Of a stretch of 64,000 bases of DNA, positions 11,201 to 19,185 are shown in pieces. The DNA comes from an uncultured Sphingomonadaceae bacterium. GTDB lineage: Bacteria > Pseudomonadota > Alphaproteobacteria > Sphingomonadales > Sphingomonadaceae. Positions within the stretch are counted from its first letter, which is position 1. Every line of letters starts with the position of its first letter. The position numbers were made by a program, and so were the translations under genes. Where the stretch lies: NCBI GenBank assembly GCA_937995515.1, contig CALKJZ010000005.1:62001-126000 (forward strand). Reading direction: 5' to 3'. Under the pieces are notes generated by a model. It was not told the DNA's origin and did not search any database. It saw nothing but the letters and a program-made list of their open reading frames with translations.

Positions 11201-11358
11201 GCACGAGGGGCTGCCAGCCCCGGCCCGGGATGCGACCGCGAGCCCTGCGGCAGCCGCGGCGGCCGATGGCTGTCGGCGGCGCGTGCGCAGACGCAGGTCT
11301 GCCGTGCGCCCCTGCCCGGTCTTGCGGCCTTGGCCGCGCGCCGGCGGGCCGTGACAGC

Positions 11359-11727
11359 TCAGGTCCGGCCGAGCTCCTGCACCACCTCGTCCAGCGGCGG
11401 CTCCAGTTCGGCGAGCGCTTCCATGTCCTGCTGCACGCCGCGCAGGATGCGCGCCACATAGGCGCGCGTGAGAAGCCCGCGCTCGTAGCCGGCCTGCGGA
11501 TCGGGGGCATAGCGTTCGATATCGGCCCGGGAGATCACGCCCTTGGCATCGAGCAGCCGCTCGATCGTGTCCATGCGCTCGCGGTTGACGGAGACCTCGG
11601 CGGCCAGCGCCATCACGATCGACAGCAGCCGGTCGATGGCCGGGTCGTCGAAGAAGGCCGGGCGCTTGCCCTTCGCCTTGGCGCCCGAAAGGCCGATCCA
11701 GTCGACATCTTCTGCAGTTGTCGCCAT
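11359..11727 (-). CDS. conserved small protein of unknown function
   Basis: 122-aa ORF, 3 bp from the methyltransferase; predicted helical; non-random composition. Confidence 0.65.
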   Translation of the reverse strand: MATTAEDVDWIGLSGAKAKGKRPAFFDDPAIDRLLSIVMALAAEVSVNRERMDTIERLLDAKGVISRADIERYAPDPQAGYERGLLTRAYVARILRGVQQDMEALAELEPPLDEVVQELGRT

Positions 11728-11730
11728 GGC

Positions 11731-12969
11731 TCAGGCCGCCTCCCTCAGTTCGGTCGCCTCGGGCTTCCAGGCCCCATAGGCATCCCAGACGGCCGCGCGG
11801 CCGAAATCCTCGCCCTGCCCCTCGCCCGAAGGCGCCTCGGGGAAGATGCTGCGGTCCACCTCGGCCCTGATGCGGATGGTGAACTGGCGGTCGCGCGGGA
11901 GCCCGGCCCGTTCCATCACCTCGGCCATGTCGAGCGCGTGCATCGCCGACCAGAAGGGTTCATTGTTGTTGAACGCGTCCCAGTCGCGCATGAACTGCTC
12001 GAACAGCGGCATGTCGTCGGTGTAGGCTGGCTGCTCGATGTGCAAAAGGAGGCCGCCGGGCTTCAGCACGCGGGCGGCCTCGGCCATGATCTTCGGCAGC
12101 GCCTTGCCGCTCAGCTCGTGCAGGAACATGGTGGTCTGCACCCAGTCGAAATGCCCGTCCGGGAAGCGGGAGAGGTCTTCCGCGTTCATCTGCACGAAAC
12201 GGATGTTGGTGGCACCAAGGGCGCGGGCGCGCGCGTGGCCATAGCGCAGCACCGGCGCGGCCGTGTCGATGGCGAACACCTCCGCCTCCGGATAGGCGAG
12301 GGCAAGCGGCACCGCATTGTGCCCGATGGTGCAGCCGAGGTCGAGGATGCGTCGCGGCTTCCAGTCCGGACGGGTCTCGCGCGCCCACTTCACGAGCGCC
12401 TGCCCGCCGCCGTCGGTCAGCCCGCCGAGCGCGCCGCCGGTGGTTGCAAAGATGCCGCAATCATAGTTCGCACCCGCCGAGACATCGCCGGGGAGCACCT
12501 CGCCATGATAGCTGCCCGGCATGCAATGGATGTCGACCGCTGCCTGGTAGCGCGGCACCTCGACCGAAGGGTCGAGCTCCAGCGTCTCGGCGCCCTCGTT
12601 GAACTGCCGCGCCCGGGCATTGAGCTCGCCAAGCTGGCGCAGCACCATCTGCCGGCCGTTCTGCTGGCGCATCTCCATCGAGTTGCGCCGCAGCGCGGAC
12701 CAGAAGCGGTGATAGGGGTCGCGGTTCATGGCGTGGCGCACCTCGAACCGGTCCTTCGGCTCGCGCCCATGCTCGGCGACGAACGCCGGCCGCACGCGCC
12801 GCTCCCACGCGAGGCGGTTCCCCGGCCCCAGGGTTCCGGCAATGTGCCGGTTGAGGTTGGCGAGGAAGTTGAACCGCGCCGCCTCGTCGTGCGTCGGCTC
12901 GGGAAACATCGCATGGCGCGTGACCATGGTATAGGGAGGCGGGATGTCGCTCCGCCGATGCTCGCTCAT
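11731..12969 (-). CDS. class I SAM-dependent methyltransferase with ~220-aa N-terminal extension
   Basis: ILDLGCTIGHNAVPLA motif I, VLKPGGLLLHIEQP. Confidence 0.85.
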   Translation of the reverse strand: MSEHRRSDIPPPYTMVTRHAMFPEPTHDEAARFNFLANLNRHIAGTLGPGNRLAWERRVRPAFVAEHGREPKDRFEVRHAMNRDPYHRFWSALRRNSMEMRQQNGRQMVLRQLGELNARARQFNEGAETLELDPSVEVPRYQAAVDIHCMPGSYHGEVLPGDVSAGANYDCGIFATTGGALGGLTDGGGQALVKWARETRPDWKPRRILDLGCTIGHNAVPLALAYPEAEVFAIDTAAPVLRYGHARARALGATNIRFVQMNAEDLSRFPDGHFDWVQTTMFLHELSGKALPKIMAEAARVLKPGGLLLHIEQPAYTDDMPLFEQFMRDWDAFNNNEPFWSAMHALDMAEVMERAGLPRDRQFTIRIRAEVDRSIFPEAPSGEGQGEDFGRAAVWDAYGAWKPEATELREAA

Positions 12970-13029
12970 GGATCAGGCCTCCTATGCCGTCTGTCCTTCG
13001 GTCTGTGCGTCCGTCACGTCCGTTGCCAC

Positions 13030-14118
13030 CTAGATGAGCCCTTCCGCCTCGCGCCTTGCGATGGTGGCGCGGGCAAGCTCCTCGAAGTGCGCCCGGTTCG
13101 GCACAATGATAGCGCCATCCGGGCCGATGAGCGAATCCGCCGGCTGCACCACGCCGGCATAGGCTGCCCGGAACAGCTCCAGCCGCTGGCGCGCCAGATA
13201 GTTGCTCATGCCCGGCTTGCGGCGGTGCCGGCGGACTGCCGCCAGATCGATCTCGGCAAAGGCCGTAAACGTCTCGCCGCTGTTCGATTCCGAGACCACA
13301 TGGCCCTTCCAGTCGATGACCGCGCTGTTGCCGTCGGCGCTTGCCAGGGGCAGCGCCTTGCCGGCAATGCCGGCCGTGTTGGCCGAGACGACATAGGCCA
13401 GATTCTCGAGCGCGCGGGCCCGCCGCGCGACATGTTTGGCGGTGGCGAGCGGCGAGCCGATCTCCGAGGAGCTGTGCAGGAACACCTCCGCGCCCTTGAG
13501 CGCATGGGCCCGCGCGATCTCGGGATAGAGGATCTCTTCCGAGGCGATGGCGGCAAGGCGGCCGATCTCGGTGTCGACCACCGGGAAGACGGCATCCGCG
13601 CCGTACACCTCGAGGAACCTCGACCAGATGTCGTGCGGGGTTGCCGCATACATGGAGTTGAGCCGCCGGTAGGTGAGGATGCGCCGGCCCGTGGGCGCGA
13701 ACACGAAGCAGCACTGGAAATGGATGCCGGGAAAGGCCGGGTCGCTCTCGTAGGCGTTGCCGGCAAGGTAGAGGCCAAGCCGCCGTGCCGCCGCGCCGAG
13801 GGCCGCATATTCCGGCCCGTCGGGTTCGAACACCGCGCGGGCCCGGAAATCGGCCGTCGCGCCGCTTTCGAAGCCGGTAAACAGATATTCCGGGAGCACC
13901 GCCAGCTTCAGCGGCGTGCCGGTGAACACCTCGAGAAAGGCGCGCGTTCCCGCGATCTGCCGCTCGACCTCGGCCACATAGTCGAGGATGGCGCGGCGCG
14001 CTGCGGCGGCCGAGCCGGCGCCATCGACCGAGCGCGCGGTCAGCTGCATCGCCACGGCGAGATATGGTTCCACGGTCATGTGCAGGCTCGGATGCCGCTG
14101 TGAAAGGCCATCGGGCAT
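13030..14118 (-). CDS. nitrilase-superfamily homologue with substituted catalytic Lys and Cys
   Basis: LAVLPEYLF (Glu), LTYRRLN (Lys to Arg), AIASEEILYPEIARAHALKGAEVFL (Cys to Ser); fold-level nitrilase pattern. Confidence 0.8.
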   Translation of the reverse strand: MPDGLSQRHPSLHMTVEPYLAVAMQLTARSVDGAGSAAAARRAILDYVAEVERQIAGTRAFLEVFTGTPLKLAVLPEYLFTGFESGATADFRARAVFEPDGPEYAALGAAARRLGLYLAGNAYESDPAFPGIHFQCCFVFAPTGRRILTYRRLNSMYAATPHDIWSRFLEVYGADAVFPVVDTEIGRLAAIASEEILYPEIARAHALKGAEVFLHSSSEIGSPLATAKHVARRARALENLAYVVSANTAGIAGKALPLASADGNSAVIDWKGHVVSESNSGETFTAFAEIDLAAVRRHRRKPGMSNYLARQRLELFRAAYAGVVQPADSLIGPDGAIIVPNRAHFEELARATIARREAEGLI

Positions 14119-14122
14119 GGTC

Positions 14123-15409
14123 TCAGGCGGGCTGGGGCTCGGCAAGGCTGTCGCCGGTACCGCCGCCCTCTCCGAGATCGGGGTATCGCCCGAGCGTGAG
14201 CAGGAGCAGCGCGCCGCCGACAAACAGCGCCGCTGCCACATAGAGCATCTGGTCGTAGTTGCCGGTCAGGTCGCGCACCCGGCCATAGATGGTGGGCGAG
14301 AAGGCCGCAGCGAGTGCGAACGGCATATAGAGCATACCGAAAATCTTCCCGTAATTGGCCAGCCCGAAATAGCGGCTGGCGAGATAGGCGATGAGATCGG
14401 ATTCCGCGCCCGCGGCAAAGCCGAGGAGGAAGGCCGAGAGCAGGATGAGCGAAAAGCCCGGATTGGCGCCGGCAATCAGCATCGCGGCAAACGCCGGCAT
14501 GGTGAGGATCGGAAGCGCCACAAGCGGCGCCCAGAAGCGGTCGAGCAGCAGGCCTGTGATGATCCGGCCGGCAAGGATGGAAAGGCCCACCACCTGCATC
14601 ACCTGCGCGGCCTGTTCAGGCGCATAACCGTGCAGCTGCACCATCTGCGGCATGTGGATGTGCGCGCCGCCATAGGCGAGCGCGACCATGAAGATCGACG
14701 CCCAGATCACCCAGAAGCGCCGGTCTCCCATCGCGTCGCGCAGCGTTGCGCCGGCAAGCGTGCCCGCACCCGCGCCGGAGGGCTGCTGCGCAACCGTGGG
14801 CTCGCGCAGGAACAGGAGCCCAAGCGGCAGGGCCACCAGCAGCGGCAGCGCTGCAATGACGAGATGGGCGCCCCGCCATCCGAACGCCTCGATCGCCCAT
14901 GTGACAAGCGGCGGGATCACCAGCGCGGCAAGGCTCGTGCCCATCAGCATGAGTCCAAGCGCGAGGCCGCGATTGCGAAAGAACCACTGGTTGACCAGCC
15001 GCGAGAAGGTGACCGGCGTGGTGCCGATGCCCACAAGGCCCACCAGCACCCACAGGCCGTAGAAGACGATGATCGAATCCTCGATCAGCGAGAAGCTGGC
15101 AAAGACGAGCCCGAAGCCGAACATCGCCAGCATGGCCACCTTGCGCGCGCCGTGCCGGTCTGCCAGCGCACCGAAGACGGGGGCGAGCAGCGCACCGATC
15201 ACGCCGTAGATGGTAATGCCCAGCGAGATCTCGGCAAAGCTCCAGCCGAACTCCGCGTTGATCTTCGGCATCACGAAGCCGATCGTGTTGTACGGGACAG
15301 GCGAGGCGCCGCACGCCACGCCCACGAGGCAGGCAAGGAGGACAAGCGAGCTCCGGGCGGTGAACTCGCCGCGCTGGGGGTGAGGCCCTTCGGGCTCGGA
15401 TTGTGCCAT
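14123..15409 (-). CDS. MFS transporter (monocarboxylate/oxalate-formate antiporter-like)
   Basis: 12-TM pattern, GALADRHGARKVAML MFS signature. Confidence 0.85.
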   Translation of the reverse strand: MAQSEPEGPHPQRGEFTARSSLVLLACLVGVACGASPVPYNTIGFVMPKINAEFGWSFAEISLGITIYGVIGALLAPVFGALADRHGARKVAMLAMFGFGLVFASFSLIEDSIIVFYGLWVLVGLVGIGTTPVTFSRLVNQWFFRNRGLALGLMLMGTSLAALVIPPLVTWAIEAFGWRGAHLVIAALPLLVALPLGLLFLREPTVAQQPSGAGAGTLAGATLRDAMGDRRFWVIWASIFMVALAYGGAHIHMPQMVQLHGYAPEQAAQVMQVVGLSILAGRIITGLLLDRFWAPLVALPILTMPAFAAMLIAGANPGFSLILLSAFLLGFAAGAESDLIAYLASRYFGLANYGKIFGMLYMPFALAAAFSPTIYGRVRDLTGNYDQMLYVAAALFVGGALLLLTLGRYPDLGEGGGTGDSLAEPQPA

Positions 15410-15427: not shown

Positions 15428-17962
15428 CTAGAAGTTGCGCCTGAGCCTCGCCATCCAGGTGCGCGGCCGGTTGAGATAGTTGTAGTTCACGAGGCTCGAT
15501 TGCGGATAGGCCTCGTCGAAGCAGTTGGAGCAGTCGACTGCGACGAGCCAGTTGCCATCATCGGTGCGCATGGAGACCCCTGCGTTCACCAGCCAGACGG
15601 CGCGGGTGAAAGAGCCGGTGACAAACTCGCCGGCAAAGGGATTGAAGGGGAAGGTCTGGCCGGTTGCGGCCGAGGTGATCGACCCGGTCCAGATCGTTGC
15701 GTTTGCAGTGCCCGACTCGGACTTTGAACGGTAAAGCGCGTTCGCATTGGGCTGGATGATGATGCCGGCTCCCGCCACCGGAATGTCCCAGCTGCCACCG
15801 AAGGCGAGGGTCCAGTCGGGCGTGCGCACCGGCTCGGCGATGCCGCCATCGACGGTCACAATCCCGGCGCCGCAGTCGGGGGCATTGGCAGCCCCGGGGG
15901 CCAGCGGCACCCGGCCGGCGGCCAGCTGCGCGCGGCAATCCGCCTGCTGCTGGCGGATGGCCTTCACTCCATAGGCGTTGGGCGCGGTCGTCTCGCGCAC
16001 CTTGTAGCGGTCGTCCTGGTAGCCAAGGTTCAGATAGAGGTTGAGCCCGTCCGTCGGCACGGCCGTGAGCTCCAGCTCGAGGCCCTTGTTCTGGTAGTCG
16101 GCAAAGTTCTGGGTGATGAAGGTCACCGAGCCATCGACCGGGTTCACAAACGCCGACGGGGTCTGGAGGTCCTTCACGTCGAGCCAGAAGCCGGTCAGGT
16201 TCACGCGCAGCCGCCGGTCGAGCCATTCCGACTTGAGGCCGAGCTCGTAGTTCCACGCGATCTCGGGGTCGAAGGGCAGCAGCGTGTCGCGCCGCGTGCC
16301 GCGCGCGTTCCAGCCGCCGGACTTGAAGCCGCGCGTCGCCGAGGCGAAGACAAGGATGTCGTCGTTGGCCTTCCAGTTGAGCGCGAAGCGCGGAGTCCAC
16401 AGCTTGGCCTTCTGGACAAGCGGGATCGGCACGCCGTTCGAAGCCACAAGACTGTTGTTGAGGCAGGTGATCGGCCCGCCCGTCGAGGGGCAGCTGGGCC
16501 GGTTGTCGCGGATGGAAAAGGTCTTCTCCTCGTCGGTGTAGCGGATGCCTGCGGTGGCCGTGAACCCTTCGGCAAAGTTGAGATCCACCTGCAGATAGCT
16601 CGCCGTTGCCTTGGTGCCGTTGCGCAGCACCCGGTCGGCAAGCAGCAGCGGAAAGCCGGTAGGGGTCCCGATGTCGACGGTGAACATGTCGGCGAAATCG
16701 GTGACGTTGCGTTCGTCGTAGAAATAGGCGCCCGCCACATAGGTCAGCAGGCCCTCGCCGAACCCGCCAGTGAGCTTCACCTCCTGGGTGACCTGCTGGT
16801 GCTTGCCGTCGTTCAGGATCGCAAAGCCGCCATTCTGGAAGCCGCGCACCGCCGGGAAGGGATTGGCGATGTTGGGAAGGCCCCGCCCGTCGGCAAAATC
16901 GAGCGCGAATCGCTGGCGCACGTCGACGATACCGGTGATCAGGTTGAGCGTGTGATTGTCGCCCGCCCATTCGAGGTTCGAGGTGATGAGCGTCGATTCG
17001 GCCTCGTTGCCAAGCGGGAAGGCGGCCTTCCGCCCGGTGACGGGCAGCGTGTACTGCGGCGCGCCGCCGGGCCGCCGCGCGGAGATCATGCCGGTGGTGG
17101 CAAAGCGCCCGCTGCAGTCCGTGGAGTTGCGCGGATCGCAGGTGAAGTTGAGCAGGTTCTCGCCGTTGGCCTGCATCCACGAGAGCGCGACATGCCAGCG
17201 CACGCGCTCCACCGGGCGCAGCTCCACGGCAAACCGGGCGCCGGCCATGTCGTTGTCGTTCAGCCGCTCGCCCGTTGTCGTGTTGCGGACATAGCCCTCG
17301 TCGTCCTGGATGAAGCCGGAGACCTTGATGCCGACCATGTCGGATGCGGGCAAGTCGACCGAGCCGCGCACCATCCACTGGCTGTAGCTGCCATAGCCCG
17401 CCTCGATGAAGCCGCCGAACCGGCTGCCCGGGCGCTTCATGATCACGTTGACCGCACCGCCCGTCGTGTTGCGCCCGAACAGCGTTCCCTGCGGGCCGCG
17501 CAGCACCTCCACCCGCTCGACATCGAAGAAGGCGAAGTTGTTGGCGTTCTGCCGGCTGATGTAGACATCGTCGATATAGGTGCCAACCGGCGGGTCGAAG
17601 GTCGCAATCGACTCGGTGTTGCCAAGGCCGCGGATATAGTAGGCGTTGGCAGAGCCGAGGCCGGTGTTGTTGGAGCCAATGAGGTTCGGCACATAGCCGA
17701 TAAGATCGAGCGTCTCGGTGATCCCCCGCGTTTCGAGCGCGGCGGCCGAGAAGGCGGAAACGGCAATCGGCACATCCTGCACCGATTGTTCGCGGCGCTG
17801 CGCCGTCACCACGATCTCGCCGAGGCCGGAGGCCGCGGGTTCTTCCTGCGAAGCCTGTGCCTGTGCCCCCGCCGGCAGCACGGCAAGAAGCGCAAGGGCC
17901 GTGGATGCCCGCGAGGCCGCGCGCATGGCCCGCCCGGCGATTGCCTTGCCAGTGATTGTCAT
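15428..17962 (-). CDS. TonB-dependent outer-membrane receptor
   Basis: Signal peptide, TonB box EIVVTAQRREQSVQDVPIAVSAF, plug RGLGNTESIATFDPPVGTYIDDVYI, C-terminal Phe. Confidence 0.95.
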   Translation of the reverse strand: MTITGKAIAGRAMRAASRASTALALLAVLPAGAQAQASQEEPAASGLGEIVVTAQRREQSVQDVPIAVSAFSAAALETRGITETLDLIGYVPNLIGSNNTGLGSANAYYIRGLGNTESIATFDPPVGTYIDDVYISRQNANNFAFFDVERVEVLRGPQGTLFGRNTTGGAVNVIMKRPGSRFGGFIEAGYGSYSQWMVRGSVDLPASDMVGIKVSGFIQDDEGYVRNTTTGERLNDNDMAGARFAVELRPVERVRWHVALSWMQANGENLLNFTCDPRNSTDCSGRFATTGMISARRPGGAPQYTLPVTGRKAAFPLGNEAESTLITSNLEWAGDNHTLNLITGIVDVRQRFALDFADGRGLPNIANPFPAVRGFQNGGFAILNDGKHQQVTQEVKLTGGFGEGLLTYVAGAYFYDERNVTDFADMFTVDIGTPTGFPLLLADRVLRNGTKATASYLQVDLNFAEGFTATAGIRYTDEEKTFSIRDNRPSCPSTGGPITCLNNSLVASNGVPIPLVQKAKLWTPRFALNWKANDDILVFASATRGFKSGGWNARGTRRDTLLPFDPEIAWNYELGLKSEWLDRRLRVNLTGFWLDVKDLQTPSAFVNPVDGSVTFITQNFADYQNKGLELELTAVPTDGLNLYLNLGYQDDRYKVRETTAPNAYGVKAIRQQQADCRAQLAAGRVPLAPGAANAPDCGAGIVTVDGGIAEPVRTPDWTLAFGGSWDIPVAGAGIIIQPNANALYRSKSESGTANATIWTGSITSAATGQTFPFNPFAGEFVTGSFTRAVWLVNAGVSMRTDDGNWLVAVDCSNCFDEAYPQSSLVNYNYLNRPRTWMARLRRNF

Positions 17963-18061
17963 CGCGTCCGTCTCCCTGTCTGGTGGCATGGTGCACCACC
18001 CTTCGATTGCCAATGTGCCCGTGCCCGCGCTCGTCCCCCGGGCCTGCCGCTTGGCGCGGCT

Positions 18062-18172: not shown

Positions 18173-18496
18173 ATGATGCAGGGTGATACCAGCGACGATC
18201 GGCCGCACTATCTGGTGGTGACAGCAACCGTCACCGACCCGGCGAAGATGCAGGCCTACAATGCGAAGCTGGCGCAAACCGGCCTCTATGCCGCCCACGG
18301 CGGCCATTATGTGCTGATCGGCCGGCCGGTTGCTGAGCTTGAGAACTGGGACGGGCGGGCCGTGGTCGTCGCCCGCTTCCCGAGCCGGGCTGCAGCCGAG
18401 GCCTTCTGGAACTCCGAGACCTACCAGCGCGAGGTGAAGCCGCTGCGCGAGGGCGCTGGCGACTTCCACGTTTCCATCTTTGCCGGCGCGGCGTGA
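18173..18496 (+). CDS. DUF1330-like protein
   Basis: YLVVTATVTDPAKMQAYNAKLAQTGLYAAHGGHYVLIGRPV...VVVARFPSRAAAEAFWNSETYQ. Confidence 0.8.
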   Translation: MMQGDTSDDRPHYLVVTATVTDPAKMQAYNAKLAQTGLYAAHGGHYVLIGRPVAELENWDGRAVVVARFPSRAAAEAFWNSETYQREVKPLREGAGDFHVSIFAGAA

Positions 18497-19185
18497 TGGA
18501 TCTTCTCTACCCCACCCTCGTGTGGTTCCACATCCTGCTGCTCGTCTTCTGGCTGGGCGGCGACCTCGGCGTCTTCCTTCTCGGCCAACATTTCCGCAGG
18601 CGCCACGCCTACAGCTTGCCCGAGCGGCTGGCACTCCTCAGGCTGCTTGTCATCACCGACATGGGGCCGCGCACCGCCTGGGCGCTGATGGTGCCCTCTT
18701 CGCTGCTGCTGCTGAAGCTGGGGCCGTGGTGGCCTGCCATGCCGGACTGGCTGCTGTGGGCGGGCAGCCTTGTGGCGCTTGCGTGGCTGTGGCTGGTGTG
18801 GGAGGCGCATCTTCACGACCAGACCCCGCGCGCCCGGCGCGCGCGCGCGCTCGAAAACCCGCTCAAGTTCACCCTCACAGGCTTCTATCTCACCCTTGGC
18901 ATTGCAAGCCTCGCAAACGGCGGCCAGCCGCTGCCGGGCTTCCTTGGCTGGAAGGCTTTGCTGTTCGGCCTCATATTCGTGGCAGCCATCCTCATCGACA
19001 TCGCCTTCCGGCCGGTGGGGCCGCAGCTGATGGCGCTCATCCAGGAGGGCTCGTCCGACGAGACGGAGGTGCCATTGCGGCGAACGATGGACAGGACGCG
19101 CATCTTCGTCATGACAGTCTATGCCCTGCTGTTCCTTATCTCCTGGCTGGGCGTGCTGGTTTCCAAGGGCATCCTCGCACTCTGA
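18496..19185 (+). CDS. integral membrane protein of unknown function
   Basis: Multi-TM; TGATG overlap with the upstream gene. Confidence 0.75.
   Translation: MDLLYPTLVWFHILLLVFWLGGDLGVFLLGQHFRRRHAYSLPERLALLRLLVITDMGPRTAWALMVPSSLLLLKLGPWWPAMPDWLLWAGSLVALAWLWLVWEAHLHDQTPRARRARALENPLKFTLTGFYLTLGIASLANGGQPLPGFLGWKALLFGLIFVAAILIDIAFRPVGPQLMALIQEGSSDETEVPLRRTMDRTRIFVMTVYALLFLISWLGVLVSKGILAL

Follow-up and report, generated by a model that had tools for sequence, protein, structure and literature searches.

Members of the nitrilase superfamily whose chemistry is known use a covalent cysteine, and the superfamily is regarded as defined by the Glu-Lys-Cys (E-K-C) triad. A nitrilase-fold protein encoded in the DNA analysed here, a stretch of 64,000 nucleotides from an uncultured Sphingomonadaceae bacterium (the window), has arginine and serine in place of the lysine and the cysteine (E-R-S; Table 1). 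Is this the relic of a decaying gene, a protein that binds without turnover, or an enzyme that works with a different nucleophile? The original prediction offered a pseudoenzyme or a new chemistry using serine, and held that the gene was not simply decaying.

Arginine and serine in a nitrilase fold

The protein belongs to the nitrilase superfamily on the evidence of both fold and profile. Its match to PF00795 (CN_hydrolase; E = 2.3e-29, 102.9 bits against a cut-off of 23.2) spans positions 23-255 of the 256 in the profile. An AF2 model of the single chain, built from 64 homologues, has a mean pLDDT of 92.9 and predicts the alpha-beta-beta-alpha nitrilase fold; its top Foldseek matches are aliphatic amidase and formamidase (E ~4e-20, probability 1.00), with target-normalised TM scores against the amidases of 0.66-0.82. 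These enzymes (AmiE/AmiF; PDB 2uxy, 2plq, 5g3p and 2e2k) are the closest folds, and the aliphatic amidase 2uxy is also the top profile match of the E-R-S family. They share with the E-R-S protein the column of the Glu base, the column of Glu142 (here Asp163) and acidic residues after the nucleophile column, but Lys134 of the amidase is replaced by Arg152 and Cys166 by Ser193, at only ~18-22% identity. An assignment to the amidase or formamidase family was rejected: all scores against the NCBIfam equivalogs were far below their cut-offs (formamidase 61 against 406 bits, aliphatic amidase 46 against 427 bits) and E-K-C is missing. Since the protein fails on both counts, the name amidase is unsuitable.

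Translation may start at Met14 (14079) instead of 14118, since residues 1-10 have a mean pLDDT of 45 and the alignments of most close homologues begin close to Met14. A 957-residue open frame on the plus strand (11230-14103) runs antisense to three conserved genes, among them the nitrilase-fold gene; it is probably a side effect of the high G+C content, and the minus-strand genes opposite are backed by Pfam and by conservation.

The glutamate block LAVLPEYLF had been described as intact and is indeed found in the product, together with YRRLN in place of the usual YRKxH and IASEEILYPE with a serine (TCG, 13540-13542, minus strand) in place of the cysteine. The proposed alignment of these blocks held as well. 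Phmmer alignments with PDB 1j31 and 1f89 and the alignment of the family profile with 2uxy place R152 on the lysine column and S193 on the cysteine column, and alignments to solved nitrilase-fold proteins and amidases bring Glu77 onto the general base and Asp163 onto the fourth catalytic acid, Glu142, with Asp in place of Glu. According to DSSP, the AF2 model has E77 after strand 70-74, R152 immediately after strand 146-151 and S193 at the turn from strand 186-192 to helix 193-197, which is the position of the nucleophile elbow. A substitute cysteine or lysine elsewhere in the active site was considered and rejected: C136 and C137 are not conserved and are replaced by T, A or S in relatives.

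What remains of the amidase site is retained, namely the Glu base, Asp163, Tyr150, Asn121 and Glu195. In our motif alignment Tyr333 and Glu389 of Lnt from E. coli, which form a hydrogen bond with each other, are the counterparts of Tyr150 and Glu195; the E389A variant of Lnt was reported to be inactive (PMC5500890), and two Lnt papers of 2017 treat the roles of the base, the lysine, the cysteine and the acid at position C+2. The surroundings of the triad are thus retained, and it is the lysine and the cysteine that are replaced by arginine and serine.

Table 1 Positions of the E-R-S gene, its active-site codons, the neighbouring genes and two paralogues
Feature	Position	Strand	Evidence or remark
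122-aa protein, no known family	11359..11727	-	no Pfam match; 44/73 loci, adjoining methyltransferase
SAM-dependent methyltransferase, 412 aa	11731..12969	-	Methyltransf_25 E=6e-20; N-terminal part without Pfam match
Nitrilase-fold protein, 362 aa, E-R-S site	13030..14118	-	PF00795, AF2, Foldseek
Ser193-Glu194-Glu195 codons, Cys column, +1 and +2	13534..13542	-	S-E-E in 153/153
Asp163 codon, column of aliphatic amidase Glu142 (fourth catalytic acid)	13630..13632	-	2uxy profile alignment; invariant
Arg152 codon, CGG, catalytic-Lys column	13663..13665	-	Arg family-wide; Lys in 17/17 E-K-C sister rows
Glu77 codon, general-base Glu column	13888..13890	-	invariant in 153/153 family rows and all E-K-C sister rows
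MFS transporter	14123..15409	-	MFS_1 E=2.6e-42; 61/73 loci; 4 bp upstream of nitrilase-fold gene
TonB-dependent receptor (start approximate)	15428..18007	-	PF00593 and PF07715; 57/73 loci
DUF1330 protein	18173..18496	+	PF07045 E=5.7e-19
230-aa membrane-like protein	18493..19185	+	no Pfam match; 50/73 loci
Cys-less paralogue, EKTQ type, near TonB-dependent receptor	G000 C10:27419-28168 (L110/L124)		strong Tat-like signal (motif only)
Cys-less paralogue, AKVF type, near TonB-dependent receptor	G000 C18:12719-13486 (L111/L127)		

The E-R-S family and its neighbours

Scanning one genome per species yielded 405 confirmed relatives, the best 80 of which were kept; family rows were also drawn from the same order, class and phylum and from the actinomycete Nonomuraea gerenzanensis. 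All 153 family rows examined (150 distinct in the core) have Glu77-Arg152-Ser193-Glu194-Glu195 (109/109 and a further 44/44), down to members with only 43% identity to the query. Across more than 50% divergence the residue at column 193 is Ser throughout and in no case Ala, Gly or Thr. The swap is therefore not private to this species, an idea that was rejected, and the lysine and cysteine that sister species might have kept are found in none of the members. By these alignments it is far beyond chance. Also invariant in the family are Asn121, Tyr123, Glu124, Asp126, Tyr150, Arg151, Asp163, Glu219, Glu238 and Asn247, and the invariant polar residues that are specific to the family (N121, Y123, E124, D126, Q135, R151, S155, E194, E219 and E238) are predicted to form a pocket.

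In a careful maximum-likelihood tree, for which the trait columns R152 and S193-E195 were masked, the 31 E-R-S rows make up one side of a branch (support 90/96), corresponding to one change, and the presence of the cysteine switches six times across the tree. Long-branch KGED rows join beside the E-R-S family, a placement that we do not trust. The dN/dS ratio between close family pairs is ~0.02-0.14. Judged from the genomes sampled, the family is widespread in bacteria and crosses phyla, with one actinomycete included.

Neighbouring clades, at ~30-34% identity, have lysine at the Arg152 column. Some of them retain the cysteine (CHD, CGE, CME and CSD types). These E-K-C sisters (e.g. L101-L103, L141, L142 and L149, annotated as 'nitrilase-related carbon-nitrogen hydrolase') belong to the same branch and have, like the E-R-S family, a TPHD-type loop after the lysine, and a TonB receptor is encoded nearby in L187; they differ from the family in that both lysine and cysteine are intact. 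Other neighbours are Cys-less. At least two more families, EKA[NMI]E and EK[TVA]Q (e.g. L104, L168 and L110), both conserved, have lost the nucleophile cysteine family-wide as the E-R-S family has, but they keep the lysine and have Ala, Thr or Val where the E-R-S family has Ser; in EK[TVA]Q, unlike in the E-R-S family, two residues after the nucleophile column are missing. The EKA[NMI]E clade (L104, L138, L139, L167 and L168) comprises Proteobacteria, Tsukamurella and the haloarchaeon Haladaptatus. Several of the EK[TVA]Q copies have Tat-like signals, by motif only.

A recurring locus with a TonB-dependent receptor

The minus strand of the window carries, in this order, the genes for the 122-residue protein, the methyltransferase, the nitrilase-fold protein, the MFS transporter and the TonB-dependent receptor; the genes for the DUF1330 protein and then the 230-residue membrane-like protein follow on the plus strand. 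This set recurs in most relatives, with the methyltransferase in 50 of the 73 loci; in most close relatives its gene adjoins that of the nitrilase-fold protein. In 30 of 40 loci a 4-bp overlap joins the stop of the E-R-S gene to the start of the methyltransferase gene; in the window 60 bp lie between them. In several genomes (e.g. G024, G051 and G088) the methyltransferase gene is far from the E-R-S gene, and in some of the 73 loci none was found near it. An FAD-linked oxidase is usually encoded immediately upstream of the E-R-S gene in the loci of relatives, and genes for an aldehyde dehydrogenase, two polysaccharide-deacetylase-fold hydrolases, an isochorismatase-fold hydrolase, an alpha/beta hydrolase and an HpcH/HpaI lyase recur as well. 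The Nonomuraea copy adjoins an aldehyde dehydrogenase gene, seemingly of the same family by eye. The E-R-S gene is part of a recurring TonB-receptor-linked catabolic locus, and the searches found no known pathway that matches it. A Tat-like twin-arginine leader, by motif only, precedes 15 of the 27 members with a scannable upstream frame; the window's copy has none.

In the compact genome of the window, additional pathway genes are present yet scattered: an isochorismatase (72% identity) adjoined by an alpha/beta hydrolase, tandem deacetylases (60% and 35%) and an aldehyde dehydrogenase (59%), with a 37% homologue at best for the FAD oxidase. Among 100 relatives, an isochorismatase orthologue was found in 17 of the 20 genomes with the E-R-S gene and in 4 of the 80 without it (Fisher 9e-13); for the methyltransferase the corresponding numbers are 15 of 20 and 1 of 80. 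Both comparisons are uncorrected for kinship.

The structural model of the methyltransferase matches only small-molecule methyltransferases and gives no clue to the substrate. An N-terminal helical part outside Pfam is seen in this family (window 11731-12969, minus strand, and paralogues in L181, L182 and L184). The methyltransferase and its 122-residue partner recur in several paralogous catabolic clusters, twice beside Cys-less nitrilase-fold proteins; these are EK[TVA]Q copies (L181 and L182). By eye, the cluster in L181 (G001:C15:22000-41900) encodes a methyltransferase, a Rieske oxygenase, an EKVQ nitrilase-fold protein, an FAD amine oxidase, a TonB receptor, an aldehyde dehydrogenase, a UbiD-like protein, a GntR regulator and a peptide-type ABC binding protein.

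Possible chemistry of the E-R-S site

That two of the three residues of the triad are lost could in itself be taken as a sign of a degenerating gene or of a sequencing or annotation artefact. This is hardly credible and was rejected: the swap is found in 153/153 homologues from independent genomes, the frames are open and dN/dS is well below 1. Decay is excluded because the residues are invariant family-wide, the family is one clade under such selection and the operon is conserved, which strongly supports the original prediction on this point. All this argues that the E-R-S site is a real, specialised active site of a nitrilase-fold family.

What the site does is a matter of less certain choices. 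We lean, with somewhat less than even confidence, towards a working enzyme with Ser193 as nucleophile, a member of a monophyletic family in the amidase-like branch of the superfamily that would act in a TonB-receptor-linked catabolic pathway. That the family-wide change from Cys-Lys to Ser-Arg would have produced a serine-nucleophile hydrolase of amides or esters, in an undescribed pathway of this kind, we propose more tentatively. The lean is due to the invariance of the hydroxyl and of the rest of the catalytic apparatus: the serine is never replaced, unlike in the other Cys-less clades, and the base and the fourth acid are fully retained. In addition to these aligned residues, the polar pocket, the single clade, the low dN/dS, the conserved operon, the co-occurrence and the same E-R-S pair in cephalopod vanin homologues are counted in its favour. 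Glu77 would act as general base on the hydroxyl of Ser193, which would attack a small amide or ester intermediate at its carbonyl carbon; Arg152, anchored by Asp163, could supply the positive charge of an oxyanion hole or bind a carboxylate, and the acyl group would then be released by water, the protein being a hydrolase or an acyltransferase. Its product or substrate might be passed to or from the translationally coupled methyltransferase, and the oxidase, the aldehyde dehydrogenase and the isochorismatase- and deacetylase-fold hydrolases of the pathway may handle it as well. However, arginine is no easy proton donor, and serine usually performs badly in a site that is canonical in other respects, since Cys-to-Ser variants of E-K-C enzymes are seemingly used as dead enzymes; MtCPA C158S (5h8k/5h8l) is, to go by the PDB titles, presumably such a dead enzyme holding ligands. 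The conservation of two neighbouring clades without a nucleophile also suggests that the branch can be useful without covalent catalysis.

Because the branch repeatedly lost the nucleophile and yet conserves the proteins, a ligand-binding pseudoenzyme is nearly as likely, although still doubtful, and the serine enzyme is favoured over it only modestly. Such a protein would bind an amide- or carboxylate-bearing intermediate of the pathway without turnover and act as a sensor, a chaperone or a structural partner; the most plausible partners would be the co-translated methyltransferase and the 122-residue protein. The loss of both lysine and cysteine, the conserved EKA[NMI]E and EK[TVA]Q clades, the methyltransferase and 122-residue paralogues near EK[TVA]Q copies and the 4-bp coupling to the methyltransferase gene are all consistent with this, but the general base, the fourth acid and the serine hydroxyl are invariant whereas pseudo-sites often drift, and loci with a distant methyltransferase or none nearby indicate that the gene pair is not universally fixed. 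An active enzyme without a covalent intermediate, of the hydratase, lyase or isomerase type, is unlikely. Here Glu77, with Glu194 or Glu195, would activate water or abstract a proton, Arg152 would bind a substrate carboxylate and Ser193 would merely form a hydrogen bond. Arginine is a typical carboxylate binder, an extra invariant Glu194 stands beside Ser193, and the conserved clades with Ala, Thr or Val at the nucleophile column indicate that covalent catalysis may be dispensable in the branch; the members of the superfamily with known chemistry nevertheless use the cysteine, and nothing in this analysis supports a non-covalent reaction directly.

Serine with arginine in a nitrilase fold has a precedent. 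E-K-S and E-R-S triads were reported for symplectin/vanin homologues of squid, and the authors suggested that the serine could still serve as nucleophile (PMC5541922). These cephalopod proteins share the paired replacement of Lys by Arg and Cys by Ser, but they belong to the animal biotinidase/vanin branch, have an extra base domain and show the swap in some squid sequences only; coming from a different branch, their E-R-S site would be of independent origin, and their function is putative, as in the bacterial family. Of the original prediction, the choice between pseudoenzyme and serine chemistry stands, with the lean given above. In the searchable literature, which leaves most subscription titles outside, the squid paper was the only one on Cys-less nitrilase proteins and no description of the bacterial family was found, so that the family itself appears to be undescribed. 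Together with the E-K-C sisters and the two Cys-less clades, the cross-phylum E-R-S family provides a natural series on the necessity of the thiol and the lysine. It also points to a multi-gene catabolic locus that is conserved in sphingomonads, and it is a warning that annotations such as 'nitrilase-related carbon-nitrogen hydrolase' include proteins without the defining catalytic residues.

It should be added that the window's own genome encodes two more Cys-less nitrilase-fold paralogues related to EK[TVA]Q, one of which also lacks the Glu (Table 1), and that the EKA[NMI]E gene of Tsukamurella lies beside genes for indolepyruvate oxidoreductase and salicylyl-CoA hydroxylase. Two nitrilase-fold domains are fused in tandem in frames of 661-692 residues (G433:C17:14983-16398, G128:C25 and G258:C5); in the two fusions checked, G128 and G258, the first domain is Cys-less (-KGED) and the second is E-K-C.
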